This document shows positions 19,195 to 64,000 of a stretch of DNA of 64,000 bases, piece after piece (positions within the stretch are counted from its first letter, which is position 1; each line of letters begins with the position of its first letter). Below the pieces are notes generated by a model, which had not been told where the DNA came from, ran no database searches, and was given only the letters and a program-made list of their open reading frames with translations. The translations under genes were made by a program, and so were the position numbers. The stretch spans positions 7,120,501 to 7,184,500 of the forward strand of contig JAPNXP010000001.1 in the NCBI GenBank assembly GCA_028753945.1, given 5' to 3'. Source of the stretch: Hexactinellida sp. DTS-2022 (taxonomy: Eukaryota > Porifera > Hexactinellida).

Positions 19195-20241
19195 GCTAAT
19201 CTGAATTAAGACCAAATTGTAATTAATCACACATAGAATCAACTAGATCTAACAACCGAGTGAAAATTCGTGAAATAAGTTATATTAGATTGTCCAACAT
19301 GGTCATAACCACAATGACAACAGTATAATTGTCTGCGGGTCACTTTTTTAACAAGGCTATGAAAGATGTTATATTTTGGATCACGTTGGAACGCACAATA
19401 GTAAACTTAGACCCAACACAAGAAATAGTTACGCGGTTGACAATGGGGTCATTTTAGACTCCATCACTTATTAATGCTTGGGATCAATTTTGCTCATGAA
19501 TCTAAGTTCCTTCAATTTTTCACGTTTAAAAATGTCTAATATGAAACATTTATTTGTTGTTTACAAAAATAGATAAACAAATTAATGACATATAGAATGA
19601 ACCTAGAGGCTAGCTTCAATCGGGGATTATTTATAGGTAAACAAGTATGCTGAACACGAATTTTGAATTATCTAATTTATAATATGAATATTATTGTTGT
19701 TGTTGACCACGCTTGTCAAAAGTTTGAGTGTTCTGAGGCTTTTGTAAAGACCTGAACTGACCTGAGTTAACAAAACCGAGATCTCGTAGTGTTTGAATTA
19801 TCTGTCGCGAAGCGACCGAGACCGATGTACTCGTATATCATATATATAAATTATTAACACAATTCAGACAAACAAATAATAATCTACTCAACTAACTAGG
19901 TCTAAGCGCCATTGCATTGGTCGGTATTTGCAAAATGGATGTGCCACCAAGGCACCAACCCAGAATTGCGGTTACACAACATTTAATATTAGTATATTAC
20001 ACTAATTCAATACAAATTATCAAGGAACTCTGGAATGTTTGCGAGCCATAATTAGAGAATATAATCAATAATTACACATTCTTCAAAGATACATATTCGG
20101 TAAACCAAATAGGAGATTCGGTTGAAGCGGTTTCAACGAGACTTTCAACCTAGGTATTTATGTATAACCAGGGTAATTGTAAACAAATACAGAATGTCAA
20201 CTGCCAGCTTCAGCTGATTGCAAATAACAAACACTCATATT
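19195..20241. other. Intergenic, 5' flank of the TTL-like gene
   Basis: About 19800-19850 resembles the tail of the Helitron family (TCGCGAAGCGACCGAGACC). The remainder is AT-rich unique-looking DNA and should contain the promoter of the plus-strand gene starting at 20242. No TATA box is certain. Confidence 0.4.
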
Positions 20242-21771
20242 ATGTATAAACAGCTCCTCAAGTATAGGAAAGTTGCACTATGTTCTCTGTTACTAATATC
20301 AGCATCATTCGTTACACTAATATATAACTCCAGAAGCAAACAGGTTTCTTACGAAGGAGAGGAGAATTCAAGGAGAGAGATCAGCACGCAGGATAGGAAT
20401 GCGAGGAATTTAGCTGGATTACAGGGATTGCTGGCAAGTGGAGAAAGACCTAAGGTAGTTAGGTTCAAGTGGTACTTCCAGGAAGGAGGTCCACAAATCG
20501 AAGGGTACAGCGGTCCTACAGCAGTGGAGGTGTTCAGACCGTTCGGTTTTTTGGAGACTGATAAAGATGATTGGGACCTACTGTGGTCCATGGTCCCCCA
20601 GTGGGGCCACTTGCCAGATGGGCTTCCTAAGAAGTGGCAGGTTCACAACCATTGTCTGACACTATCAAACTACAAAGGAATATCGGGAGACAAGATCTCT
20701 CAGTGGGAGAAGTACCGCTGTATGCGGGACAAGTTCGGGACGGAATCCTACGGTTACATGCCGGACAGCTTCGTCCCGTCGCCCCAAGACTCCACCCCTG
20801 GGGAAGAGGACGGCGTTGCCTGGATACTCAAGCCGTCTGTCGGGAAGAAGGGACTGGGAGTTAAAATATTCAACAGCACCATGGATGTGTACAGATATGT
20901 ACAGGCAGGTTCGGCAGGAAGAGTAATTGTTCAGAGATACGTGGATAACCCGTTCTTAATCGGAGGCAGAAAGTTCCATCTCCGTCTCTACCTCGTGATA
21001 ACTAGCCTAGTTCCGCTGAGGGCGCTGCTGCACAGAGAAGGACTTGTGCTATTCGCCAGCAGAGAGTACGCGTGGGGCAGTGAACAGGACCTGAGAGACA
21101 TGTCCAAACAGCTGACTAACGCAGCGGTAGCAGACCGCTTGCAGAGAAGTAGCCGTGTTAACTCTATGCTGTTCTCAGAGCTGCTCGCAATCATGGCTAC
21201 AGAGTACGGAGCTGATACGCATCAGCTGATCAGAGATATCGAGGACCTGATGACCAAGCTAGTGCTCAGCCAGCAGTGCGACAGAGAGTACGAGTACCAT
21301 TCTACTGGCACCTGCTTTGACATTATCGGGATAGACGTGCTGCTAGACTCCAACCTAAAGCCCCACCTGCTAGAGTCCAACAACGGGCCCGAGATGTACA
21401 CAGCTGATCCAGACACGAGAAGAGCCAACGACCTAGCACACAAGGCTCTCCTGAATGACGTCATTCCGCTCGTGATGAAGACACACAAATCTAGTCACTG
21501 GGAGAAGACGGAGTTTGTCGATCGGGTCGGTAGGTTTATGGACAGACACGACTATAGGAGCTGCTCAGAGGGGACCGGAGTCATAGGAGAGAGGTGTCTG
21601 AGTGATCAGGATCTGCTAGAACTGTGGGTCTCCTTCTACCAAGAGAGACACCTCAACAACTTCACTCTCCTCTACCCCAGCCCCAGGTCTGTGGAGACCT
21701 ATCGGAGGTACTGGGTGCAGGAGCAGTCGGATTACGACAAGCTACTCACTCTGTGGGTACACTCTGCTTAG
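20242..21771 (+). CDS. Membrane-anchored tubulin-tyrosine-ligase-like enzyme
   Basis: Intronless, 509 residues. The start is the ATG at 20242; the frame opens slightly earlier but without an ATG. Residues about 11-28 are a hydrophobic signal anchor, so the catalytic part should face the lumen or outside. The TTL (ATP-grasp) fold is visible: [17 protein letters not shown] at about 193 (ATP-binding lysines and Gly loop), [20 protein letters not shown] at about 229, and [20 protein letters not shown] at about 361 followed by NNGP, which keeps the D, E and N magnesium ligands. TTL family enzymes attach amino acids to tubulin or other proteins. A lumenal TTL enzyme would need a non-tubulin substrate; that is inference. 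The subfamily is not assigned. Confidence 0.88.
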
Positions 21772-24332: not shown

Positions 24333-26204
24333 TTAGCAGGCGGGGCAATAGAATTCCTCTCCTAAGTCCTCCGAATCATCTATGTTGAGGCAGAGAAAAT
24401 GGAACCATAATGAGCACTTGCTGCACTGCACCCATATAACTTCTTCATCTATTATCTTGAGGCCGAGTCCAAATCCTACAAGACCGTTAGCTGCGGTTCC
24501 GAGGCAAATGGTGCAGGGTTCCAAAGAAGTGTCTGTGGAAGAGGTGGCAGCTGGAGTGGAAGAGGTAGCAGCTGGAGTGGAAGAGGTAGCAGCTGGACTA
24601 GCACGGGTGGTCCCAGCGTCCATTTCTTCGTCCGATGAAGATTGTCTGTCAAATTTCGATTGGGCCCCAGAATAAGCCCCAGAAAGATAAGGAGCGGAAC
24701 CTTTGGAAAGCTGCTTCGAAGTTTTTGTTCCTCTCCGCTGCTTCTTCAAAAATCTCTTCCTTTGTTCCCTAATTACATTGACTCTTTGTGCAGCCCTTGT
24801 TTCATCGAGAGATTGAAATGCTGCCTGTAATCGTGTGCTGACCTCGATAGAAAGCATATGACAGAGCTTCTCTATACCATCAAAGCCACGATTATAACGA
24901 ATCACAGAGAGCGCTGCGGCGAGGTCCATAATGTCTTTTCCAACGGCATCTGTATTGTGCACCATTGTAAAAAGAAGTGAATGAATGGCCTCATTATGGT
25001 TAGAAGATAGGCCTTGTGAGATCTTCAGTACAAAATCTTCGGAGTCGTAGCCAAACTCCTCAAACACGTCTAGAATTATAGAAGTGGCTTCTGGACCAAG
25101 GTAGTTCGGATGAGAGGGCGGGGTCTCAGATTTAAATTTGGCCTGCTGGAATCTACACCAGGAATCCGAGCTGAATGGGCAAAATTGATGATTATCCTCT
25201 GCGTTTTGGTCTGTCGCAGAGAGATGAAGAGGAATGGATTTGATTGCGGCCAATATATCAGGTACATCCCTGGCGTTACGCTGTACCGCCATTCTATAAT
25301 ATGATGCGACTTGACCGCAGAGAGCTAGGCTGAGGTGGCGAATTTCCTCCGCAGGCTTACTATCCCAGGACTCCCTCCCTTTACTGGATCGCTGTAGCAT
25401 TCCCCTAAATACAGGATCTACTTTCTTGCTGACTTCTTTCTTCCCCAAGCCACTCCTCGATAAAGTGCGAGAAATTGCTGACTTATCAGCCCTTGCCGTC
25501 TTCAGGACTTTGTCTTGGCGCTTGTGAAGATTAGTCTTCATCCGCTTCGCCACATGCGCAATGCACTCGAACCGTTGGATAGTGGGAGCGTTATGGATAT
25601 CGGTATAGAGCCCAGCCTTAGAAATTACGTCATGGGTCTTGTTGTCGCCGTCCGATACTATGGCAGTGAATAGGACCCCACGTTCCAGCGCATCACGAAT
25701 TACCTTTGGAGCGATTGCAGATTCCAATTGGACAGATGAATAAGCCTTATGTTCTGCACGGCAATCAGGCTTGTGGAGGGACATCTTGATTTCGTGTTCT
25801 TCGGTAGAGATTACTGAGTCGCGCAGCTTGTTATCAATTGTGTTGCAGAGAGCACAACTGTTACAAGCCACTCCATATGAAAGAACTTTTCCGGTCTCAG
25901 CAGAAATCGCTGCAGCAAAGCAGTATCGGGAAAAGCCCCCTCCAGATTTACCAGAACGCTGCTGGTATGCCCCGTCGAAAGTACCGATTACCTCCACATA
26001 TTGACAACTGGAGTCAACAGAATGAAGGGCTCTCAGCTCATGGACTGCCATGTTCATACACTCATCCGCAACAACCCTAGCCGCTACGAGGAGATCAGCT
26101 TGTGCTAGGGAGAAGTTACGTTTGGATATGGGTCCAGGGATATTCAAAAAAGAATGGTATGTGGAGTTTTGACCATCCAATCCCCATAATACGGGCAGCC
26201 AACA
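24333..26204 (-). CDS. Mutator-like DDE transposase with C-terminal PHD finger (3' exon)
   Basis: An uninterrupted frame of about 620 codons. There is no ATG at its head. Instead a good acceptor (TACTCTTCAG) precedes TGTTGGCTG at 26204 and an in-frame TGA lies just upstream, so the N terminus is on an unseen exon. Numbering from 26180, the catalytic region has GTFDGAYQQR (D69), the paired cysteines CNSCALC (106-112), SDGDNK (177-181), FECIAHVAKRM (204-214), FCPFSSDSWCRFQ and NHNEAIHS, the layout of the invertebrate Mutator-like transposase domain (Kolobok is the alternative). Residues 556-615 are a PHD finger: C-x2-C, C-x2-C, WFHFLC, C-x2-C. A Ser/Thr/Pro-Ala repeat joins the two. The intact frame suggests recent activity or domestication. 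Confidence 0.8.
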   Translation of the reverse strand, partial: CWLPVLWGLDGQNSTYHSFLNIPGPISKRNFSLAQADLLVAARVVADECMNMAVHELRALHSVDSSCQYVEVIGTFDGAYQQRSGKSGGGFSRYCFAAAISAETGKVLSYGVACNSCALCNTIDNKLRDSVISTEEHEIKMSLHKPDCRAEHKAYSSVQLESAIAPKVIRDALERGVLFTAIVSDGDNKTHDVISKAGLYTDIHNAPTIQRFECIAHVAKRMKTNLHKRQDKVLKTARADKSAISRTLSRSGLGKKEVSKKVDPVFRGMLQRSSKGRESWDSKPAEEIRHLSLALCGQVASYYRMAVQRNARDVPDILAAIKSIPLHLSATDQNAEDNHQFCPFSSDSWCRFQQAKFKSETPPSHPNYLGPEATSIILDVFEEFGYDSEDFVLKISQGLSSNHNEAIHSLLFTMVHNTDAVGKDIMDLAAALSVIRYNRGFDGIEKLCHMLSIEVSTRLQAAFQSLDETRAAQRVNVIREQRKRFLKKQRRGTKTSKQLSKGSAPYLSGAYSGAQSKFDRQSSSDEEMDAGTTRASPAATSSTPAATSSTPAATSSTDTSLEPCTICLGTAANGLVGFGLGLKIIDEEVIWVQCSKCSLWFHFLCLNIDDSEDLGEEFYCPAC

Positions 26205-26827
26205 CTGAAGAGTAGATCAAGAGCGAAATGAGTTCTAATTATTCGGTAATTGGAATGGAAAATATTAAGTATAGAATTGAAATAAAATAAATGGAATGCG
26301 CTCTAAATGTGCTCTTTTAATTCAATATAACATTACGAATATACCGAAATAGATACTAGATAGTTAAGTCCTGACAAGCCCATGACAAGCCCATGAAATT
26401 AACAAATAATAAAATTAGTTAAAAATCTCAGTACGAACTACTAATTTAATCCTGTCTTTGAAATAACGCACTGAATTTATGCGCCTATAATGATGCTTTC
26501 GTATTACGTTCGTCTATATGACTCTATGGAGTGTTTATTACAATTTCTACACGCCTACAGTCAACTCACCATAATTGTTGCACCTCAATACACATACCGC
26601 GCGCGCGCATATAGTTGCAAAGCTGAGTTAAACGATACAAGTAATTTTTTGATAAAGTCTATCATAGTGCATGTTCCTATTAATAAATCGTTTGTCACTA
26701 GAAGAAGCACGCGCCATTGTACACGTTCCAAGACAATCCAAGTACACTCCCTATCCATATAAGGAGCGACTTCTTTAACGCTCTGGCCTTAAAATGATAC
26801 AGCAGTGTAATATCATATTAAAGAATG
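26205..26827. other. Intergenic between transposase and TADA3
   Basis: AT-rich. No coding region or clear inverted repeat seen. It should include the start of the transposase transcript and the TADA3 3' UTR. Confidence 0.35.
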
Positions 26828-37218: not shown

Positions 37219-39518
37219 TCATTTATTACTAAATTTAGGTATTTCTTTGACCTTGACCACTGGTTGAAAATGACTCATATACAACCTCAAATAAATCCTG
37301 CTTTCAGTCAATTCATGAACAGAATGCCGGTCGTTAAAGCCATATCCTGAAAATTTCATCCAATTCTCGGCAATGGCATTAGTATATGTCATGCTTGGAT
37401 AGTTAGGATATAATTGTGGACCTAGTATTAATCCTGACCAGAGAGGACATATTGGCATGTAATACGTGACTAAAAATTTCGGGAAATCAGGTAGAAAATG
37501 CAAATTAGTTTGAATGTTATGTACCCGCTTTTTGCTTTCTAATTTTGAAATTACTTGTATGCAATTTTGTAATTCACTTTGAAAATGTATACCGAAAGGC
37601 GATCTCGTTCTATATGTATTACCATCCCCTAAACTATTAGGAAGTTCTTCATCTAGCTCTGGTAAATATTCTAGATCGACATTAAACTCTTCACTGCTAA
37701 TGCTGATAGCATTGTCGAGTTTGTCGAAATATTTTTGGATCTCAGGATATAAATTCTTACTTAGACTTATCATACAAAGGGAAATAAAAAGTTGATTCAT
37801 TTCATCGAATATTGTACAACTAACCATTCGAGCCATTATAAACATAATTTTTTGCTTCCGTTGTTTGTCTAATTGAAAGTTATGCCCCAGTTTATAACTA
37901 AAGCGATTCATAACGTGTGCTGTACAAATATGAATTATAGTTTTGGGAGAATGAGTACTTGATGAATGTGTCTGAATATATTGCCAACAAGTATTGAGAT
38001 AATTTTCTAAAGTTTCTTTGCAGAAACTGTAGCAAACGCTGTGAAGCATTGCCCAACTATAATCAACTTCAATATGATTGGGCACTATTAGTTTATTAGT
38101 AACTTTTTTGACATCATATAACCATCGATTAAGAAAATTTGAAATTTCTACATTTGTTTGTTCACTGGATATCATTTCGGCAAGTGGTATTGGGCTGACC
38201 CTGGCTTCGGGATGTTTTACTGACAAAGCATAGTACAAGATCTTTTTCTGAAATTTATCTAACTTTCTGATTACAGAACCAGTTGCATCGAAATGCAAAG
38301 TTAAACACCCTTTTTCCAAGTATTTCAACAACAGGATCTGTTCTTCACTATATAAGTGAATCATTAATGGAGTATGGCAGAGCATTTGGACATAGCCATT
38401 GAGATGATTTCCTACGATAGTACTTGCATATGACATTTTGGTAATAACTATATCTTGCCATGGATCGTTGTCTAATCTCGACTTTGCTAAGTGTTGAGAT
38501 TTTACTTTTCTAAGTAGATCAGTTGAATGTAAATAATTGAAGTTTCCATGTTTTGCAACAGATATTTTTTCTGAATCAGTGAATAGTGAATAATGATAAT
38601 TAGAGGGACTAGAATTTTCAAGTTGTTTTGCTACAACCTCTCTATTATCACCTACTAAAAGACGGCTATATGAACAACGATGAGAAAAATGCTCCATTGA
38701 AATTGATCCGGTAACAACATACTTTATCCTCAAACCTTTGTTTTCTAACGTTTCAGGCGTTTCCATTACAAATTTAAAGCTAAAACATTTGCTAAATTTG
38801 CAGGTTGCTGCTGCAACAAAAAATGGACAATTCCGTACCATATACCTTTTGTTGATCCTGTTGTATAAAAATTTGATTACACAAATAGGGTAATAACTTG
38901 CAATTTTATCATTAAAAATATTCGTCCATCCTGGTTTTAGCGTATTTTTTGACCATTTTGGATAAATAAGGTCCCATTCTTGCCTGGATAATTCAAATTC
39001 TCCTCGTTTTATTTCTTCAACATCATCAAGTGAATCTAGATTTATACCATCACTGTTTGCACTAGTCGGTAAATCTAGTGATGAAGATTCAAATTCTCTA
39101 ATTGATTTCGAACAATTGACTTTTTCTAATTCTATAACCTCATTATCCAAGCTAATCTTTGGAATTTTTGATACTTCGGAGGATGAAATAATTTCGAATT
39201 GTGAAGAAATTATATGAGGTAAATTAGAAATTGGAATGCTAATGGGTAAAGTCAATGTATTTGCATGGAAGATTCTCTTTACCTGTGATTGAATATTGTA
39301 TCTGTTGTTTCGCCATAAATTCATAAGCTTTGCACGCAGTTCTAAGCGATTTCGTCCATATACTAATTTACACCACTTTCCCCAAATGGAATAGGGATCA
39401 CGCCAATTTCGACAGTCAAGGTTATCTATGTTCTGAAATTCATCTGATATTAATATTTGCATGGCATTAATAATCTTGGCTGGTGCATTATGGCATGGAA
39501 TAGATCTCTCAAACTTTT
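37219..39518 (-). CDS. Mutator-like (FB-NOF type) transposase, main exon
   Basis: An uninterrupted frame of about 765 codons. The ATG at 39462 is possible, but coding-like sequence (KFERSIPCHNAPAKIINAM) continues upstream to an acceptor TATTAATAG at 39519-39521, so the exon probably starts at 39518. Numbering from 39462, a Cys-rich segment (CPFFVAAATCKFSKC, about 210-225) precedes the catalytic core: LHFDATGSVI at about 388 (first D), NHIEVDYSWAMLHSV at about 463 (second D) and IHICTAHVMNRF at about 508, matching the D-x-D plus C-x2-H layout of Mutator-like transposases. A YTNAIAENWMK block near 695 is a candidate for the final Glu region. No stop or frameshift is seen, so it may be functional. 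Confidence 0.8.
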
Positions 39519-39608
39519 CTATTAATAAAAATATGATTAAATCACTAATTAGTTCTAATTAAGCCACAATGTAAAATTCAGCAATTTATTAATTTACACA
39601 TTACTTAC

Positions 39609-49655: not shown

Positions 49656-50239
49656 CTATTGTTGGTATTTTATTAGATATCCAGGATATGCAAGTCCATT
49701 CTCGTAGAGAATGAATACTGTAGTCCCAGCAGGATGGTTGCCATAGATAGAATGGTAGCCTTTAGGGGGCCCACGTAAACTATAATTAGGAACTCTGTAT
49801 TTGGCATTCCCAACAAATACTTTTGAGAGAAACATTGAACAATTACCAGCTCTATCTGTATGTGCAAAGGTATGTGAATATGAAGCATTGACAGCAAAAT
49901 ATAATCCACTACCCCACATCCCCTCACATGCATACTTTATATTGAATCCCACAGCATCTCGTATTATAACTTCAGGATCTGTGTGAGAGGAGCCGTGAAA
50001 AAGCGGTTTGATAAGAAGAGTATTCTCTTTATATTCTGAGCCCTCAGAAGCGCCAGAGTTAATACCAACTTTCTGCTTGACTTTCTGAACAAAGTTTTCC
50101 CAGCAAGTTCTGTTATGTATCTTTGTAATACTTAGAATTGTAGCTTTAGGCAGAGTATTTAGGAAGTTTCTAGCGACTGCAGAGAACTCATCACTTTCAT
50201 ACGCTAACTCTTCTTTGGTAAGGATAGGTTCTATATGGA
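49656..50239 (-). CDS. PARP (ADP-ribosyltransferase) catalytic domain, 3' exon of the sacsin gene
   Basis: Continuous frame of 194 codons including the stop (49656-49658). There is no initiating ATG at its head. It opens with TC CAT ATA after the acceptor CTTTCTTCAG (AG at 50240-50241). The order of PARP landmarks is intact: ILSITKIHNRTCWENF, LFHGSSHTDPEVIIRDAVGF (first triad residue His), MWGSGLYFAVNASYS (Tyr), MFLSKVFVGNAKY, and a close AYPGYLIKY in which Leu occupies the place of the PARP1 glutamate. H-Y-L is the mono-ADP-ribosyltransferase pattern seen in PARP14/15-like enzymes. The phase matches the donor at 51163, so it is most simply the last exon of the giant gene. The alternative is an orphan pseudogene. 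Confidence 0.85.
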
Positions 50240-51163
50240 CTGAAGAAAGATAAGGATTTGGGATACAGCGGGTACAGTTATAAGAACATCAGGGTTCTCG
50301 CTAGGCATCTTCAAAGGGTACATGTCCTTTTTGAAAGCTATTGTATTGTACCCTTTATTCACATGTTGTAAGTAGGCATGTACCCTTTGAGTCAATATTA
50401 TTATTTGAAGGTTTCATTAAAATCATTGACATTAAGTAATATCTCACTCTCATGTACCCTTACAACGAAAATCCTGGCGAGAACTCTGAAGAACATCATT
50501 GGGAGTAGTGAATATGTTCTTATAACATATACTTTTTCAATTCAAATAAATAGAACCGTTTCCCAGAATATGTTTTTTATAACCGGCATGCTCTTAAAAC
50601 ATGTGTTCTTATAACCGATATTTCTTTACCGTCACGAAGCGACCAGGACCAAATGGTTCGTTAAAGAATAAATTGCTTAATACATTCTTGCATGTTAAAA
50701 AGGCTTGACATATAGCATTCAAATAATAGTTTCAAGATTTTTACTGTAACAACTATTCTATACTTTAGTGGCCCATTTGTGAAATAATTGCCTTGGATTT
50801 TTTTCGTTTGATTTCGATATTCGTTTTAGCAAAAAATTAATTAATTAATACAGAAATCTCCCCCCCCCCATGTAAGCATAAAATCTTCATTGAGTTTCCC
50901 TCTGAAACCCCTCTGCCCCCCCCCCCCAGTGCCCCCCCTGCCGAAAAATCCTGGCTCCGCCTCTGACCTGGATTAGAAAACTTCAGCTTAGTACGTACTA
51001 CTATTTTAACCAAGTTTATTATGCAGTATGTAGTAGTATATAAATGTAGGGTATATTCGGTTAGTATGTACACTCGGATAATACGTACATATTTTCCATT
51101 CCCCAGGGGCTACGTTATAACCGAGTTCTACTGCAATGTATTGATATTAACAGTATAACTTAC
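50240..51163 (-). other. Predicted 924-bp intron joining HEPN and PARP exons
   Basis: Donor GTAAGT at 51158-51163 and acceptor CTTTCTTCAG at 50240. The intron is phase 1: T from the upstream exon plus TC gives a Phe codon. It contains a hAT MITE (50290-50488), remnants of the TTATAAGAACATC repeat, C-rich sequence at 50860-50940 and a pogo-like remnant at about 51040-51135. No other coding exon is visible in it. Confidence 0.75.
50290..50488. mobile_element. hAT-type MITE in the sacsin/PARP intron
   Basis: A 199-bp element with ends CAGGGTTCTCGC and GCGAGAACTCTG and the exact 8-bp duplication AAGAACAT (50282-50289 and 50489-50496). The interior pairs AAGGGTACATG with CATGTACCCTT. It landed inside an older TTATAAGAACATC-type repeat. 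Confidence 0.9.
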
Positions 51164-54100
51164 AAAGTTCCAGTTGGGTCATCATAAGAGATCGAGCTGT
51201 AGGACGTACCCACACTTTATCATTATCTCGAAACATCAACTCAGTGAAAGCAGGAAACTCGCTTTTCACTATTTCCAGTAAATTGGAGGCGCTAGCAACT
51301 GCCTCTTTAGCTGTAGTTACAGAGATTTGCTCCATAGGCAGACAGCAACCAATCCCTGGAGTCATTAGCGGGTTTTTGGCAGATTCATCAAAGTTGATAA
51401 GAGAAACGCAATTAGAACTGAAACTTTCATAAGTTCCATTTGGTGGGAAGAAGCGCTTGACAGTATCCAATAGGATATCTAGATTCCGCTGACAAGATAT
51501 ATTAGCCTCACTGTATCTGTTAATGTAGAGAATGGCAATACAAGTCTTCATTGCACATTCAAAGCAGTTTGCACAAGAATGAGGAGGAAATACTGGATAC
51601 GTATTGTCCTCATAAATAAGCTTTCTGGCTGCCAACAAGTCACATTGTGCAGTGCGAATCCACAGTTTAGCTATGAACTTGTCTTGTACAGACAGAGTAG
51701 CAGTGGGATTAGGGATAACACTGATTGGAGAGACAGGAGGAGGAGGTGTGTTAATGATCTGAAGTAACCTTCCTCTGGTCACACCTGAAGTACGGATAAT
51801 GCTAGAACTAGGAGCGCTATGGGGAATTACAGTAGCGGGTAGCACTGCAGCTGGTCTAGATATAGACTGTGGTAAGGGGATATCGTCAGTGAAGGGACAG
51901 GCCTGAATATTAAAAGAATCCAATTTATGCGTGATATGAGCTGGGTCCCCACAAGATAAGCAGAGCTGCAGGGCAAATAGTATGTCACTAAATAGGTTAC
52001 CAAGGTGGAGATTCAGTGCATACGTGAGGTCATTGAAGAAATTAACATATGTAGTGCTTCCGCCCTTAGCATACAGAACTGAGTTCTCAATAAAACAACT
52101 GTAAATGTCATCTTTGTTAACCACGCAACCAGTAATACCGTTAGTTATTCGCAATGATATTGAATTTATAACTTTGACAATAAGATTCTGAAGAATTAAG
52201 AAAATCGTTGAAAAATGAGAATCATTGGCAATCCCTGGTTCCTTGCTGATATCCCTAACGGTGTTATCTGAACTGATTCGGATATGATTTAGATTACCAC
52301 TGCCATTAGCTTTGGTAGAATGGTAGTAGATGCGAATCAAACCTTTAGCAAACTCACTACTCTTCAGCAGTTGTGTTAATTCTTTAGATTCATTTTGGAA
52401 CTTGCCTATAGCAGGAGCATTAGCTAAGGTGGTATCCAGATTCTCGTGTATGAGCGCACTCAAGTGCCTAACCTGGAGAGAAGGAGGAGGCTCGCAGGAC
52501 CCCAGGGAGTTAGGCGGGAGTTCAAGCAGGAACTGGAGGCTAGAAAGGTCGGGGAAATCTACCACATGGATCTTGAGTCTTGTATTGTCTATATACACGA
52601 CTTGATCCAAACGTACAATATTGAATTCGTCAGACAATACCATTGTGGAAGCAATATCTAGGACAATAGCAGTAACTGACTCTTCAGCTCTTCGGAGAGA
52701 ATAAATGAACAATTTAAATGCACTCCTACTAATTTCCTTTCTTCTCTCGTCAGTTAAAGAATTGTCCCGTGAAATATCGCCCATAACAGCAGCGTAGTGT
52801 TGATAAGTAGGAGAATCGGATACCCCAACAAGGTTAAGGAATGTGTGATACTCATTCAGCGCATCGGGTACTTTAAAAAGATAATCCATCAATATCGTGT
52901 CAAGGGAGAAAACAATGTTTCTGGGATAGAAGAGTTTGTCATTATACAGGATACATTTCATTGTCTCAAACTTTTCAAGGACACTCCTCTGGTTACACTG
53001 TTCCTGCAGGAACTTGTATGTCTTAAAGAATAGATTCTTAACAATACTGGGATGGTTTCTAGATAGTTGGGAGAAGCTTTGGCAAATTATCTTCAAGTGC
53101 TCAATAACAGTATGATTTATTGGCTTGTATCTGATTCCTAAATGTGATACAAACGAATTAGGGTCAATCTGTGAAACTAAGGGATCATGAACGTAAGAAG
53201 CAGTACAGCAGGTAAGATCGTATTCTGACAGCTCAGCTTCACTGAACGAGGAAACGTGTCCTCGCATTCGGTTGATATTTGGTACACATTTCCAAACAGG
53301 TAGAAATCTAATTGTAGCCAATTTCTGCAAGAGAGATATGTTTGTAGTATTACTGAGCACGAAATTACTGTTTAACAACTGAACTAGAGCACAGAGAGGG
53401 ACCTTATTCTGATCCGAATTCAGAACAATTCTCTCGTTCTCCACCATCTCAGCTGCCCTTAGTATAGACTCTAAGTCTGCTTTGTTGTGCAATCCCACTC
53501 CACACAATACATTGTGATAATTCTTATCAGTGTCGGACCAATCTGATGGCAAGAGATGTTCAGAGAAGAATATCGTGAATAATTGAACTGCAGGGGAATA
53601 AAACTCACTCACAGATAATTTGATGTTTGATACGGGATTACGAATAAACTTAACTGGCCTCAGTTGGTAAATAAACTGCTGCTTATAAGGCTTTGAAGAG
53701 GACTCGATATAATTAAGTATTCCTTGTTGCTCTTTGATGTCTAATTCAACAAAACACGGTATAACGTACCCCATGAATATGTCCTGTTCACTAATCATGT
53801 TTATGCTCAAAACAGATGTGATTCGTTGTATTAATGCATTTTGTTTAGGGTTAGCACAGAATATAGTAACGCTCTTCTTGGACAGAAACCCAATCAACAG
53901 AGGACCGAAATTAATAACTGAATTGTTAATAAAACAGTTTCGGAATTCAGTCACAGAACATAGCTTCGATTGATGAGACTGGAATATTTTAAGTTTGGAG
54001 ATTATTTGGATTTCTTCCATAGATATTTGTGAAATGTCAGAGGAAGAAAATAAATCAATGAGCGCATTAGCTTCATAAATAGAAAAGCTAACTGAATCCA

Positions 54101-57100
54101 ATTTAAAGCTTGATAACTTTATTGCTGACATGAGTGCATGATACGTGATATTACTATAAATAGTTAGTGGTCTTAGATAGCTGCCTAGTGAAATTAAATC
54201 TAGCTTTTTTGGTATATTAAACTGATTGAGAGACAATTCAAAACAATTTAATTTTACTAAGGAACTGAGTAGACATCTTTGGGGTTGATGAGAGATAGGC
54301 GATACTCTCTGATTGAGAATAGCTGGTAGATTTGATATCAATGTTAGAGATTTAGTTGATTGTGTCTTAACTGGAATTAAAGCTAATTGTCCGAACTTTT
54401 TGATCAAATCATGACATTGGTAATTGGATTCGAGTATGAATTGCCAAAATAAACAACATTCTTGTAACTTTAATATTTTACAGCACAAACTACTTGATAG
54501 AAACTCAACATCCAATTTTTGGATAAAATTATTTTTAGAAAGTTGAACAATGCTTGATTCAGGGAAATTTGAGAATATGAATCTGTCTGCACAGTTTGGA
54601 AGTAACTCTGCGTATTCAGCTCGGAAGGTACACTCTTCTTTCGTAAAACAACAAAATCTACCATTGTAATCAATCTTCAGAGGAATGGTTCGATAGGAAC
54701 TCAATACATCAGTGTTTGCATTAAATATATAAGTTAACAGTATTTCTATATCTTTCATATTTAGCAACGAATGAGAGATGTTTTTGTTAGTAAATATATC
54801 CCTATTATTATTGAGAAATGCAAGCAAGTAACTTTGGTCGAGCCTTCGTAAGTTAAGTGAAAACCTCTTAAAACTAGCTTCCACATAGTCTGGAGCACAA
54901 GTTAAACGTAATTGTACCTTATTTAGGGTAGAATAGAGAATATTCTCTTCCTTATAAAGTTTGGGGAACTTGGTGAGACGAGTAGAACCAACGCAAGAAA
55001 GATGGTCGGAACAAGCGGTAGTGATTCTCGATTTAGGATCAGAAGTATCTGGGAATACACCTTCAGTTGCACCTCGTAGACAGTACCATTCCTTGTAGGT
55101 CTGATCAATAAGAATCCTCTCATTGCATTTGTAAAGAAGCGAATAGAACTGCTCGCACAAGGCGTACAGGAAGTTATTATACGTCTGGTTGTCATTAATA
55201 AGCTGCTCCATGTCAGGGAATAGTGAATAGTACCAATTATAGTAGCAATAATCACACGACCCAAAATCAGCAACAGTCGAGTGTCTCTGTCTAAGGTATA
55301 GTATTAAAGAGACAAATAGAGGCGTTAACACTTGCTCTATTATGGCAGAATGCCAGACGTCTTCCCACTCCTTTCTCCCTGGCTTATCTCCACGGATATC
55401 TTTGAATCGAATATGTTGTCTTTCAGGCTCAAGTATAAAAGGCGCATTAATCACAACCGGAAAGTGCATAGTCCGATCATCTCCGATGGGAAGATACGAA
55501 TACAAACAGCTCCCTGATGCTGGCGCAGTATTTGTACCACTTGGGATTCTAACTGCTATTCCCCCATACACTCGATGTGTCAGCTTCTCCTTCTCATACG
55601 TGCTTTTGTATTCTTTAATGGCAGAACAACACTTCTCAAGTTCTTCGATGGACCCGCTGTGTGTGAACAAGAGCCAGATAGATTTCTCTGGCGAGGCCCT
55701 CGTTCTTTTCCCAAGAGTTCTAGATGGATGTGGTCTAGGATTCTTTTCAATAGCTATTTCTCTAACGGAAATGTTAACATCTTTCACATAATGAGACTGG
55801 AGTAAGTCCATTGGAAAGAAAGGATTCGCTTCTCTTGGGAAGCTAATACTAAGATCCATGGTGCCTAGTAAACTTGCGTGGCCATCCTTGTTACGCTTGT
55901 ATATAGAAATGCGTTTAATATTTTCTAAGAAGAGATTAATATTAGCTGATTGAAGAAGAAATGAGGACAATATTTCATCTACCTTCTGTTCCTCATCTGG
56001 ATTCATTAATGGGATTCTGAAGAGGGTATAATCGCCTTCAGTTAGTGGAGGGAAACAAATCACTCCCGATTGATTCAGAGACTCTAAGCAGTAAGGACTA
56101 AATTGATCGGGGAATTCATTAATTTTGTTAGAATTGAAACTGAGCTTCATTCCGGGTAACTCTCGAGGATCCAGTTTTAAGTACTTACGAAAAGGATCGA
56201 AGATACAAAATGAGATTAAGTTATCAGTGTTTCTCCTAGTTAGTAGGCAGGGGGAATCTGTGAGATGATACACTGCGTTAAATCCAAGTCCAAATTTACC
56301 AATGGTATGTCTGTCCTTCTTTCCGCCGAGACCTAAAAGCTGGATTCCTTCTAAGTCTTGCTCACTGAATGAACTATTGTTGTAGACAAGCAGAGAGGGA
56401 CACAGCTGGTACTTGTGCCAATCTGGCTGTTCCATTTCACTGAAGCAAAGAGAGCTAGTCTGAGACGAATAGTTTTTGTAGTCCAGTATGAATGCTACCT
56501 CCGTAGCCCCCGCATCCTCTGCATTCTGTAATAGCTCTTTCAGAATGGTGGTACCAGAGGGGAACCCGCGCTTAAGGCTGCTAATCCTGTCTGCTATATC
56601 TTCATGTTGCCCGAAATTACAACGAGTAAAATGCTCTCTCGTGAAGCACTCACTCCGAACGCTTCTCGCACCGAGGTTAAACGCGACAGTAGGATGAATC
56701 AATGAATGGACAAATGAGTTTGATGTACTTAATGAGTAGGATCCTTTCTTTCCCTTACGCCATGGCATATCGTCTATTTTCAATTCACTTGGCTGACAAA
56801 GTTTTAAGCCCGAAGATAAGAGCATAGGCATTGTGTAAGATCTTACTCTATCATTGAAAAATGAATTTGTAATTACTATAATCAGATCTTTAAGGAGAGT
56901 TTCTGAGGATTTAATCATAATACCATGTTCACTTGCAATTTGTGACAATACACCACAAGCTATTTCTGAGGTAATATCCTCTTTAATACCTAATGCTGTC
57001 AAGAATTTACTTTTATATTGAATATCATTGGTTAACTTGTAAGGAAATGTTGAAAGGAATTTATTTTTGTAACACGAATATTTATGAGAACTGACCACAG

Positions 57101-60100
57101 ACGAAACATGACAAAAACATTTAGTATCCTCATGCCAGATCCACTTCAGGTCACTAAGTTTATCATTTACTGAAAAGTCTCCACTACGTATACAGGAATA
57201 CCACTCAACGAATAATTGACTGTATATGTCCTGTGCCCTCTCTGATAACTCAGTTTGTAGGTTTAGGAGAATAATTTTATTTTCGTTCTGTTTCAGACAT
57301 TTCAATAGCGAGATCGGCATGTCAATAGTGATAGAATCATTGCTATGTTCCAGGCCGAGGAAAGTATTGAGCTGTGTTGTATCCACTTCTTCAATGACAG
57401 CATAATAATCAGGAGAAATGGCGTACCGAAGAGCATAAGGAAAACACTTATTGGGGCTAGAGAACTCTACAGATGACTGTAATTTCAGACTAATTAGAAG
57501 ATGATCTCTACAGACAGGAATAAAAGCTATTTTTAACAGTTCTCTTTTCAATTTATTCCGTTCCCCTATTTGATAGTACTTGGAAGAAGCCACATATTTA
57601 TTATTAAGGTATTTTAGGATAACCATACAATGATCTTTCCTTTCAGGATTAACAAACTGTTCCTGACATTTGCAACGGTCGATAACATCTTCCACTGGTA
57701 GTATGGTTTCAATCATATTCAGCGATTTCATTGCCTTGTAATGAACTGATTTCTTAGCAAATAACTCAACCAAATCGGGATGCAGAGTTCTCTTGTCAAT
57801 AGGGCGGTATAGCTCAGCTAAATATGAATGGGGACTAACAACAGAAGAGGGTAATACTAATTCATAGTTATTCTTACTACCACATGGAATGCACTCACTT
57901 GTTGAGAAGAGCTTTTTTATCCAATCCTGACCAGTAATCTGAACAATTGGTAACATAGCAGTTAACACTAGCTTAATGTCTGGGATGGATAAAGTGTGGA
58001 AATGTGGGAAAAGCAATGTACAACAAATTATCTCTAAGGAATAGATTTTAGTTGAATTTTTGTAGAATTCCTGAAATAATTTGGAAGATTGAACATCATT
58101 AGGAAGCTCGATAAAATGAATAGCTGAAATTAAGCATCGTTGTCTGACAAAGAGGAAAAAGTCATCCAATTTATTTTTCGAATAATAGTGCTCGGATAAG
58201 AAAAAGTTTGCATCTTTATAACTTACCCATTCAACAGATATCAATTCACTGTAAAACATGGGTGTATTCAGTTCCATAAGTCTCGTAGCAAATGAACAAG
58301 GAAATCCTTTCCACACCACAGATTGTTGCTCTTGGAGAGGCCACAGGTTATAAAATTGTGAAATTGTTTTCCGATTAAAATTTCCTCTAAGGTGTGTTAA
58401 TAGGTTGATGAGTGCATTGACTAGTGCATCATTGATGAGAGCCTGGTTCCATTTAGTTCTTTCACTGTCATCCTCAGTGCAGGCGATCCCTCTACGAGAT
58501 TGGTCCAATGCAAAGCAACCGTTTATGAACATGGGATAGGGCGAAGTGGTAGGGAGGGGCAGATAGCAATACATATTGCATCGGGCGGTAGAAACAGGAG
58601 AATTCGCTAAAACGGTGCTCTCTCGAAGAGCAATCGAAGCAACTGGTGTATAGTCCGAAGTTTTTCTATTCGTATTCTCACGAATAAAATCAGCACACTG
58701 TTTTGTGCCAGTGGAGTAGGATACAAAATATTTTTTCTTATCAGTGTGATCAGAAAAAATATTTTGTATACTACTCCTGGTTATAGAAATAAGTTGATGA
58801 TAGGAATCAGGACTAACTTCTGACTTTAAGGGAATTCTATCAAAATGTTCGAGGTTCTTCGAAATGAAAGTTCCATGTTTGGGGAAAGGATTCGTTTCTT
58901 CTTTCTTAGACACGAACAACAGCGGTACTTCTTTCAAATCTTTGGTCCTCTCGTATATCCTAATACTGGTTATGTGCTGGAGGAAGAGAATATATGATTC
59001 AGTTTCCTCCTTTATACTAGCCACCAGCTGCTCTATTTGAGAATTGTCGTATTCCTTGTAGGAAATAAGAGAAGAAACATCGCTTGATCGAAATGGTAAC
59101 CGGAACAACGTTCCTTTGAATGTTTTTTTGTTAAAAACATCGCAGTTGAAAAGTTTTAAATTAAAAACATTAAATTGGTCACGGTACTGTAGAATACTCT
59201 CTCTGTTAAGAATAAAATCTACCCTAATCCCTGGAGGCGAGTTCTCGTCAACAAGATACTTCCTATGCGGGTCCAGCATATAGATGTACTTGCCACTTAC
59301 AAAGCTAGGCAAATCTGTCAAATGGTAGACAGTGTTAAAACCTAAACCAAACTTTCCAATCTTACTTTTATCATGGAGTTTTGTTTCACCGAAAATCTGC
59401 ATGATATTCTTAAAATCATTATCAGTAAACTCTGCATCATTGTAAAAGTACAAAGCAGGACCTTGCCAGTGTCTCATAGAGGGCTCTATCAAAGACACCG
59501 CTGGAAACTTATAATAGTCAATTAGAACAGTGACAGTACTGGCTTTGGCATCATCCGCATTCTGGATAAGCTCTTTAAATACGTCAATACTAGACTCATA
59601 GTCTTTTAGAATGCTTTTCAGTCTGGTGGTCAGATGTTCATACTGACCTACACACTCGAAAATACCACCAGTATTCCCTAAAAGAGTTAGTTTGAGCGAA
59701 TTTGCTCCAAATTTACTAGCCACAGAACTTGAAATATTTGAATTTACAACAAAGTATATTTTATTATCCTTCTCTACTTCAGTTTTGTTCCCGCCGTTAC
59801 CAGAGCCGTAGAACCCACACTCAGTCGCCAGGTGCAGGAAATTGTCTGCCCCAAGTAGGTAATATATTCCCAAAAATAATTCATTTTCAGACAAGTAATA
59901 AATAATATTAAGCACCATGTCCTTTTGTTTTGATATTACCCCCAATTGATTTTCGTATAAATTCTTCAGTATATCATTCAATTGCTGAGGAATAATGGCA
60001 TTACATGCTCCACGCTGTAGGAATAGTATCCAGACTTTGTCAGAATAGTTTAGCTTCTCAAAAGAATAATAATATGGCTCCAGGGAGAAATTCAAGTTAA

Positions 60101-63100
60101 ACACAATCTGTGTTGCAGCAACAAATATATTCTTGGCTTTCACATAAACAAAATCATTAACAATAGAATCTTTTAGACTTAGAATTTTAGGGCTAGCATA
60201 GATTGCGTTCAGTAGAGCGTGAAGCATTTGTGAGTCAGATCGCTCAGTTTTAGTTTTAGATATCTTGTGCAGTTGTTCGACTAGCATCTCACCAGTCACA
60301 CTCGTATGACAATTGAGTTGTGTCAGGATAGGTTCGAAGGTAGTTGACGGATTGGAAAAATAAGAAGATGTGAACAGAGGCACGCACTGCCTAACGCTAG
60401 CAATTAGCGGCACTTCTGCCAAAGTACAGAACACTACTGACTTTAACTTGCATAGCTTTCTGACTCCAAGGAAGGGAAGGGAACGTGGATACGCCTCCGG
60501 TCTGGTGCATAAGGGTAATGCTATTGCACTGTTAAGTAAGGAATTAGAAACAGTACTGATATCAATACGAGATGAGTTAAGGAACTTAAGAAAAAATGAA
60601 AATCGATTTTCCCAATCTTTTTCAACAAGAGAAAAACTGGCAACAGCTAACCCTATTACTTCTTTAAACAAATGCTGATTAGGTATCTCCGAGGAGCTGA
60701 GAAACAGCTGTTTGCTCTTCAGAGTGTGAGAATAAGCACCGTAATCTCTGTGAGGAAAGAATTTAGATCGGGCGGGTAGGATTTGCATCATAATAGGATC
60801 ATCTGGATAAAACAGCTCACCAGCCTTACGGTAGTCTGCACACTTAGAAAGTGAAAGATTGGAGTTATCAACAATCCACTCAAACTCCCTCAGATCCCGG
60901 ATGTCATCAGAAGATAGTTTGTTAATGTTGTCTAACAACCATTTGCTAAGCAAGGAATGTTTCACACAGTTTGTATTTCGACTCAAAGATTGCATAAATG
61001 TCATTAAATGTTGTGTAACGAAATTGCCCATATCCTGACTAGTAACTCCTAACTTATCATAGAGTGTGTTCAGGTTGTTACAGTCTGGCGAGAGAAAGCT
61101 AGTTGGATACGGAACGCCTGTAGGCAAGCTAATGCCAGCAGGGACTCTGACATGTGGAGAAGATAAAGAGAGATTGCCTCCAGCCATGCTAGAGAATATC
61201 GGTAGCTTCAGAATAATATTACTTTTTTGCCTAACAACAAATAGTGTATGAGTGTTGAGGATATCAACAATAATACTGAGTAGGGCTTTGTTCTTAGTTA
61301 AATTGAGTTGGCAGATAAAATGTGCTAAAATGGTAGTATTCTTCTCCAATAGAGTCAGCAATCCATTTGGAAGCTGTTTGATGGTTAAACTCTCTAAACA
61401 CTCGATGAAATGGCTCGGATAAATGAATATAGCACCGGAAGCGCCCAAAAGCTTTTCAAGCGCTAAGTATTCCTCCTCATTGGAGCAGAGAATATAGGAA
61501 ATTGTGTTGGAAGGAATTATAGGGAACAACTCATTGTTAACAAAGATGTTTTCCTTTGGAAGGAGTGGGAGGGTTCCTAGCGACCTAACCAGCTTTTCAT
61601 CTGACCCTAAAAAGGACCATACGCGTTTTATCCAATCTAAGCTAAAGGGCGCTTTAGGGCTCCAGCTGATAGCTTTGTCAATACTATGAAAGGTAGACAT
61701 AAGAGATAGTTGGAACAGCCGAGTCAGTAGACTCATATCTGTCTTAAGACAGTTGGAAATATCCCTGATGTTGAAGTTACAAGTCTGGGCTTGAGATATG
61801 CTCAAGAGCCGGGAGTGTATCTCAACAGGAATATCTGTGCTTACGAACGAGTGCTCTACCCCAGGGAAGAGGTGGATGAAATTCAAATCCAATTTATAGA
61901 TATAAAGAGGAGAATAAACATCCCCCGAGAACTTGGATATATTATGAGAAGCATTGATGAGAAGAGGAACATCTCTAAGATATACATTCGCGTTAGTATA
62001 AGGAAATTGCAGATCTGATAGAATGAAACTTAGAATAACAAGAGTGTCTTTTTGGAGATTCTCACGAAAATAATCCGTTAATGCATTATCATTAGACTCC
62101 TTTCTCAACAACTTACGAATGACTTTAGGTGTAATCCGGTTTTGATCAATAATAATTTTAATCGAACTTATTCTACCCAGTACAGCCAACACAGAGTTAG
62201 GGAGATATACTAACGGCTCTTTTATGCACTTCATTAGATTCTCAATAGCAGTTTCGGTTTGGGAAGAAGTATATTTAATGTTTACATACTGTGTGGAGTG
62301 ATACAAAGCTTCACTAATTTTAACCCATTTATTTAACACAGTGGAATATACAATCTGAGCGTTGGCCAATTTCTCTAATCCCTGGTTAACTAATATATTC
62401 GGCAAAGAATTTGGAATAGTATTTCCTTCACCAAATAGCCTGTAATGGTAGATTTCAGGAGTATCATGTTGAAAACAGTGTATAAGAACACGATAGAAAA
62501 TAGCGTAGGCACTGACGCCAATTTGTTCAATCAACAGTCTATTCCAGTTAGAGTCTGTGTCGTCAGAGTCCAGGGTAGGCCACTTGATGCGACGCCTGTC
62601 ATTAGACAGAGAAAAGTAGCCGTGGAAGCTAACTGGCAGATGCGAGAGCTCAGGCGTTGGTAGGAAGCAAAACAACTTTCCACTGTTCACTGCTAGTGTG
62701 TACTCGTTTGGCACTTTGAATCGAAACGTTAACTGAGAAAGAACTTTATCGATAAAACTCAAAATGTCAGTCCCATTCCAATCATAATGGAAACTCAATT
62801 TAACTGATTTTTTCAGATCATTTCCTACTATCCCAGTTTCCATTGCTATCCCAATCCATGGTAGATAGTCTAGGTTGTTATCATTATAGAATTCCTTGAG
62901 ATTCGAGGGAAACAAGGGAAATCCGATCATGTTCAATACCAGCATCACCTTGTTCTGCTGACAAGTTGAGATGGGATACAAATTGATTGTTACCTTTATG
63001 TTATTATGGAATTTCTTATCCGTCACATGACAAGATAACTGTCGATAACAGAGTTCCACCCCCGGAAGATAATTCTCCGGAATCTCAACGGAGAATATAC

Positions 63101-63472
63101 AAGTATAGAGTTTGCCTTTCTTTTCGAATAGTTTAATGGCTTTCACTTTCTTAAGGAACAACAGTATATTGTCTGCCTCTGCCTTGAGAGGTTCGAACAG
63201 AGTCTTCATGACACGGCTAGTGTCGTAGAGCCCATCAGGCTTGATTTGAGAATTTGATTCTTTGGTTCTAAGAGGAAATCTGAAAATAGTTCCGTCATAA
63301 GTATCACTTCCGTTGCAATTAAAGTATTTTAAGAAACAGCTGCTATGTCCGGAGTATTGCCTCTCTCTGAAGAACCAGTTTAATCCTATCTTAATACCAG
63401 GCCTGCCTTGGTATATTCTCTCCTGTGGGTCCAATATTCCAACACTCCCATCGCTCAGTACAATGGGGACAT
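51164..63472 (-). CDS. SACS: Sacsin-family giant protein, main 12.3-kb exon
   Basis: One exon with about 4102 codons. It has no ATG start: the frame is entered through an acceptor (CTAATCTCTTAG) at 63472 that completes a D codon in a (T)DVPIVLSDGSVGILDPQE context, the middle of an HSP90-type ATPase, so earlier exons lie beyond the window. Numbering from 63434, a second ATPase begins at about 1260 (ELIQNADDAKAS at 1287, IGKFGLGFNTVYHLTDLPSF at 1360) and a third at about 2275 (ELLQNAEDAGAT at 2298, GKFGLGFNAVYHLTDSP at 2376), each followed by a long sacsin internal repeat. Residues about 3915-4070 form a HEPN domain (LWIRTAQCDLLAARK). No J-domain HPD motif is seen before it; a proline-rich linker stands there. 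Vertebrate sacsin is a chaperone-like protein. The frame seems to end at 51147, but a GTAAGT donor at 51163 precedes that stop. Confidence 0.93.
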
Positions 63473-64000
63473 CTAAGAGATTAGTTAATAGTATAGTATT
63501 TCACTGAAAAAGCACTGCTGGCGTTAATGTAAAATTGCCAATTTATTGAGCTGTGATATTATGGGGTTACTTTTATGTTGGCAAAGGTAATGCGGAAATG
63601 GTTCGATTTTTCAAAATAGGAAATAGTTCGACTTTCATTTTTGTATTGTAGGACCATGGATTCAATCCGGCTTTTCCTCATATCCATGGTGTAGCAACAC
63701 TAAAAAATCGAACTCTGTCCTATTTTGGTTTTTCGAACAATTTCCGGTTTATGTTTTTTGAACCATTTCCACCATACCGTTGGCAAACACCTTTTCTATA
63801 TAATAACCTTGTTAAGTAAAGGTGAATATTTTTTGTTATAAATGACCATGCCAGTCCCTGATAATCTCATTACAAAAGGTATTGGCTTATAGTGGGGCAG
63901 CATAACAATAAAATTGTTCAATTTTGATACAAGCATAAAAATTGGGACAGACATAGATAAATACGTATATTACAAAAAGATATGGATATGGAGGCATAAC
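63473..64000. other. Intron 5' of the giant exon, with a MITE
   Basis: It should be intron of the sacsin gene. No ATPase exon (no FGLGF or QNADDA frame) is seen here, so the next exon is outside. About 63579-63790 is an inverted-repeat MITE: GCAAAGGTAATGCGGAAATG with the inverse CATTTCCACCATACCGTTGG-type end, and inner TTTTTCAAAATAGGA with TCCTATTTTGGTTTTT. Confidence 0.6.

Follow-up and report, generated by a model that had tools for sequence, protein, structure and literature searches.

The sacsin-type and PARP reading frames on the minus strand of the window (the whole 64,000-base stretch analysed, C1:7120501-7184500, from the glass sponge Hexactinellida sp. DTS-2022) are, with a probability of about 90% as judged from the sequence, two coding exons of a single gene, cis-spliced across a phase-1 intron of 924 bases. 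The predicted product would carry SACS repeats, a long middle region, a HEPN domain and a PARP domain, in this order, an arrangement that the sequence supports. The same exon junction was found at eight loci of this genome, comprising the window and seven paralogues, as expected from the proposal in the preliminary description that a sacsin-HEPN-PARP protein is made by splicing.

Anatomy of the predicted gene

The giant minus-strand frame at 51147-63500 comprises 4,117 codons, with SACS repeats inside it and a HEPN-fold domain at its end. As a coding exon it would span 51164..63500, where 63500 is the stop-to-stop limit of the frame and not a mapped exon start. Three SACS stretches were detected by Pfam in this frame (E 7.2e-143), whose protein is referred to as P0001. 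Of the first SACS (sacsin, Hsp90-like ATPase) repeat, the second half lies at 63123..63482 on the minus strand (PF25794, C1:7183623-7183982), and the first half was located upstream of the window, at C1:7188704-7188964, by the genome-wide search with the Pfam SACS family PF25794. The second repeat occupies 58929..59639 (minus strand; C1:7179429-7180139; PF25794 E 4.9e-73; residues 1288-1524 of P0001) and the third 55881..56606 (minus strand; C1:7176381-7177106; PF25794 E 6.7e-49). The exon closes with the HEPN-type domain at 51165..51677 (minus strand), an interval that includes the C-terminal stretch past the HEPN fold.

At its end the giant frame reads GAA CTT T|GTAAGTTATACTGTTAA, which places the donor at 51164|51163. 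The phase-1 intron (GTAAGT...TTCTTCAG; 50240..51163, minus strand) is closed by the acceptor CTTTCTTCAG|TCCATA at 50240|50239, where CAG|TC matches the phase of the donor and opens an intact PARP frame. A donor just before a stop and an in-phase acceptor 924 bases on had been described previously and are borne out by the sequence, but the stop said to come 11 bases later had been misplaced, since the TAA of the retained intron (51147-51149) begins 14 bases past the donor. The last exon (49656..50239, minus strand; Pfam PARP E 2.6e-18) indeed holds an undamaged PARP frame, in which the split Phe is followed by 193 whole codons and TAG. It also has no start of its own, as had been claimed: no in-frame Met occurs before residue 107, which lies past the triad His.

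Within the intron, runs of 7, 12 and 10 G in the minus-strand reading were observed at 50850-50970, near AGGCGGAGCCAGGATTTTTCGGCAGG, and look like possible remains of a repeat element. Other long frames in the window are found at 37219-39558 (779 codons), 24333-26216 (627 codons) and 20218-21771 (517 codons).

The exon pair is repeated across the genome

When a 283-residue stretch from the end of the giant frame (the tail) was used as query against the genome (112.4 Mb in 18 contigs), eight matches were obtained, the window included. All eight are followed downstream, on the same strand, by a match to the window PARP. A search with the PARP frame returned 33 matches, headed by the window's own, and the PARP exons of the eight tail loci are the top eight among them. 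The eight loci lie at C1:7.17 Mb (the window, intron of 924 bases), C1:12.27 Mb (C1b, 16,088 bases), C2:5.36 Mb (C2a, 823 bases), C4:5.30 Mb (C4, 223 bases), C2:0.87 Mb (C2b, 677 bases), C15:3.41 Mb (C15, 861 bases), C1:0.540 Mb (C1c, 535 bases) and C1:0.547 Mb (C1d, 528 bases). In every copy a phase-1 [T/A]|GTAAGT donor is present at the homologous column together with a phase-1 acceptor, which in most copies was taken as the AG at the homologous place among several AG candidates in various phases before the PARP. The codon split by the junction encodes Phe in seven copies and Ile in one. The family has thus been duplicated repeatedly in this genome, and C2b/C15 and C1c/C1d are recent duplicates, so that the eight copies amount to approximately six independent lineages. 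The PARP frame of C2b breaks early.

The two halves of the pair appear to have diverged together. Pairwise distances of tail and PARP were correlated (r 0.968; reached in none of 20,000 permutations) across nine rows, comprising the eight copies and the Oopsacas minuta protein described below. The correlation among the seven rows left after removal of C2b and C1d was 0.933, a value reached by 2 of 5,040 permutations, and the trees of tail and PARP agree where they are resolved. Between the window and its nearest paralogue, dN/dS values were 0.243/1.209 for HEPN and 0.266/1.379 for PARP; in more distant pairs of copies dS is mostly saturated. The PARP exons of the tandem pair C1c/C1d differ by few changes (dN 0.034, dS 0.048), and their high dN/dS hints at relaxed constraint there.

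The nearest paralogue of the window, C1b (C1:12257000-12276999), contains within its 16,088-base tail-to-PARP intron an 891-codon frame resembling a transposase (TNP-like RNase H, E 1.2e-12) as well as another of 1,047 codons with no clear Pfam match. Because of the length of this intron and its transposase-like frame, the two parts of C1b may no longer be joined. In addition, a decayed copy was observed at C18:5386000-5395999, in which pieces of SACS, tail and PARP keep the same order and are split by inserted sequence bearing long frames on the other strand.

The fusion in Oopsacas minuta and other database relatives

A protein search with residues 3700-4115 of P0001 (416 residues) yielded ten relatives. 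Related genomes had been proposed as the place to look for sacsin repeats and PARP in one gene model, and such a model was found in Oopsacas minuta: P0006, deposited as a single chain of 4,433 aa, contains a PARP domain besides three SACS stretches, and the residue at the join is the same as in the window. It is 63% identical to the 416-residue tail query, and its junction (QIEN-F-DLYPTLTKEEL) aligns with that of the spliced window product (QLEL-F-HIEPILTKEEL), so that the two are in exact register across the join. Architecture and junction residue being the same, no substantial difference was seen between P0006 and the window gene. P0006 is a gene model and therefore itself a prediction; for O. 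minuta, Braker/Augustus was used for gene prediction after RNA-seq reads had been mapped to the scaffolds (PMC10280926).

The preliminary description stated that no sacsin with a PARP tail had been described. This holds for the literature searched, as the protein is undescribed in the portions covered of open-licence PMC main texts, and none of PMC8195603, PMC3710099, PMC10280926, PMC10282587, PMC8745260, PMC4245714 and PMC6208414 describes it in the parts consulted. A term search of the main text of the O. minuta genome paper (PMC10280926) found neither the word sacsin nor the word PARP. It does not hold for the databases, in which the protein has been deposited as 'Sacsin-like', with the UniRef name 'Poly [ADP-ribose] polymerase'. 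The modules are therefore known ones in a combination absent from the literature sections searched, and the fusion itself is already in databases, unremarked, by virtue of the deposited O. minuta model.

The other nine of the ten relatives have no PARP and end, past the same column, in C/S-K/E followed by a short stretch of unrelated sequence. These endings read like a retained GTAAG or GTGAG donor, and the nine proteins would accordingly be unspliced calls. Three of them agree exactly with a PARP-exon protein in the length of the longest contig (P0009 with P0018, P0010 with P0019 and P0011 with P0025), which suggests that sacsin and PARP are linked in other assemblies as well; the other six found no partner by this criterion. 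P0003, with a sacsin tail 93% identical, has no equally close PARP partner, the best hit in the protein search with the PARP being 77%. When other giant proteins carrying this PARP were sought by a word-limited search, P0006 itself was the sole one among 206 word-sharing candidates. Gene calls made without splicing may thus hide the PARP tail, since nine of the ten relatives end just past the donor.

Alternative readings of the exon pair

The PARP exon could instead be part of another gene downstream, which would have a promoter of its own or receive a leader by trans-splicing of an operon-like transcript at the AG at 50240. The glass sponge Aphrocallistes vastus is reported to have a trans-spliced leader (PMC10282587), a pyrimidine-rich acceptor would be just as suitable for trans-splicing, and in six of the eight PARP exons the triad His is preceded by an in-frame Met (residue 2 in C2a and C4; residue 29 in C2b, C15, C1c and C1d). 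However, the PARP exons of the window and C1b have none, P0006 is one chain, and a separate gene would leave unexplained both the phase-1 GTAAGT donor, which occupies one and the same column in eight of eight copies, and the matched phase. The conserved donor is what makes us disfavour a separate trans-spliced PARP gene, which we consider very improbable. Mere chance adjacency, in which an unrelated PARP fragment or dead relic lies beside a sacsin gene, might be entertained in a genome with many PARP exons and with a decayed copy of the same pair on C18, but it is rejected on account of the matched phase and donor column in all eight copies and deserves practically no credence: the pairing recurs each time, both exons of the window are open and under similar constraint, and the tail and PARP trees agree wherever they are resolved.

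Cis-splicing of the two exons into one message, the reading preferred here, leaves room for a variant in which both forms are made under regulation, the fused protein by splicing and a PARP-less sacsin by intron retention. A clean short form would always be possible, because past the donor the frames of the copies reach a stop within 5-116 bases in eight of eight cases. These frames diverge, however: the residues they encode differ from copy to copy, and selection on the short tail itself is therefore not visible. Regulated production of both forms is regarded as rather unlikely, though well ahead of the two preceding alternatives.

The PARP domain

Among solved structures, the best sequence match of the window PARP was PARP12 (E 6.2e-13), and structure comparison gave PARP12, 14 and 15 as best folds, starting from a structure model of modest confidence (mean pLDDT 62.3). 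The triad was read from an alignment of 20 rows, which excluded the broken copy C2b. Its His (exon residue 81; 49995..49997, minus strand) and Tyr (exon residue 113; 49899..49901, minus strand) are conserved in 20 of 20 rows. The third position, assigned from the alignment with PARP12, is a Val in the window (exon residue 174; 49716..49718, minus strand) and corresponds to an Ile of human PARP12, which we take to be the residue belonging to the catalytic triad; it is occupied by V in 14 rows, I in four, A in two and E in none. The catalytic Glu that marks the H-Y-E triad of a poly-ADP-ribose polymerase proper is thus not present. The window PARP is best read as a putative mono-ADP-ribosyltransferase of PARP12/14 type, resembling the clade-3 mono-ADP-ribosyltransferases PARP12/14/15, in which the third triad residue is likewise not Glu. 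PARP12, PARP14 and PARP15 carry zinc-finger, WWE or macro domains. They are not known to carry a sacsin body, whereas the window PARP would be attached to one.

The sacsin body and the HEPN domain

SACS repeats, of which sacsins usually have three, and a C-terminal HEPN are both features of the sacsin family, and both were found here. The window HEPN was not called by Pfam alone, but was identified from Pfam matches on paralogues together with the fold. A sequence profile of it gave nothing significant against solved structures (the best match, to a histone, had E 0.9, and 1wol had E 1.6), and Foldseek on the tail gave weak matches, the best being 1wol, an archaeal HEPN homologue (E 0.037). 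An R-x4-6-H string is absent in three of the eight tails, including that of the window, and occurs at differing places in the other five; none of these strings appears to be conserved.

Vertebrate sacsin ends with its HEPN domain. The human protein comprises Ubl, three SIRPT, XPCB, J-domain and HEPN (PMC8745260). In contrast to vertebrate sacsin, with its J-domain before HEPN, P0001 and P0006 are without DnaJ by Pfam (no match at E 0.01 in P0001 and none at E 0.5 in P0006), and a PARP follows their HEPN. Since no DnaJ was found, the protein is termed sacsin-type and not a vertebrate-type sacsin. An N-terminal ubiquitin-like domain was not found in O. minuta P0006, and the window does not reach the first exons of its own sacsin-type gene.

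Possible function of the fused protein

If the protein is made as predicted, the SACS ATPase array could act as a nucleotide-driven chaperone or sensor scaffold, and the HEPN, in which no conserved RNase motif is apparent, as a nucleotide- or RNA-binding module, perhaps a dimerising one. The PARP would then mono-ADP-ribosylate proteins (or nucleic acid) captured or sensed by the scaffold. A protein made from an intron-retaining transcript would lack the PARP and end just past the HEPN, so that splicing could act as an on-off switch for the enzyme. HEPN domains have been suggested to dimerise and form a GTP-binding site (review, PMC8745260), and action of sacsin at the RNA level in stress was proposed by authors writing on HEPN (PMC3710099). 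An enzyme fixed to the sacsin tail would offer a direct handle, because the proteins modified by the PARP should be those held by the sacsin body.

Sacsin and PARP modules have likewise been recruited into other multi-domain proteins. Amphimedon has sacsin-like proteins fused to DEATH domains (PMC3710099), and in marine invertebrates TRADD-N is fused to sacsin and also occurs with Macro, PARP and HEPN (PMC8195603), in both cases with proposed immune roles. These fusions differ from the one reported here in that the partner of sacsin is DEATH or TRADD-N and that of PARP is TRADD-N, with Macro and HEPN; a sacsin-PARP protein is named in neither PMC3710099 nor PMC8195603, in the parts consulted. 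By analogy with the Amphimedon sacsin-DEATH and TRADD-N fusions, and considering the duplication of the sacsin-HEPN-PARP family, we would guess at a role in stress or innate (antiviral) defence. With the fusion, a chaperone-type scaffold would join the bodies known to carry PARP effectors. A more specific and speculative scheme, which we hold to be doubtful, is that the expanded and diverging sacsin-HEPN-PARP family of glass sponges constitutes an NLR-type defence machine, in which the ATPase array would sense or capture aggregated, viral or foreign protein or RNA, the activated mono-ADP-ribosyltransferase would mark the target or shut down host processes, and intron retention would provide a PARP-less regulator.

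Sacsins without a nearby PARP match and other PARP genes

Two further giant sacsin frames were found in the SACS family search, at C18:1217000-1232200 (4,866 codons) and C4:4377400-4392300 (4,855 codons). Both end just before the point where HEPN begins in the others. Neither the C18 (1.22 Mb) nor the C4 (4.38 Mb) frame was matched by the window tail query in the genome search, and neither has a nearby match in the genome-wide Pfam PARP or window-PARP searches. The PARP tail is therefore not common to every sacsin in this genome; PARP tails appear to accompany the sacsin copies that have a HEPN tail, and the two giant frames possibly represent a second sacsin subfamily.

PARP-domain exons are numerous in this genome, with 53 Pfam matches besides the 33 matches to the window PARP. 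At C6:2100145-2147601, nine identically scoring PARP-domain frames of 207-229 codons lie within 47 kb, and equal-scoring copies also occur on C3, C4 and C12; together they would represent a PARP gene or mobile unit that was amplified recently. Two PARP14-like frames, ordinary relatives, lie in long single exons: that at C16:5115267 is accompanied by macro and WWE domains (Pfam), and that at C18:583220 was read by eye.
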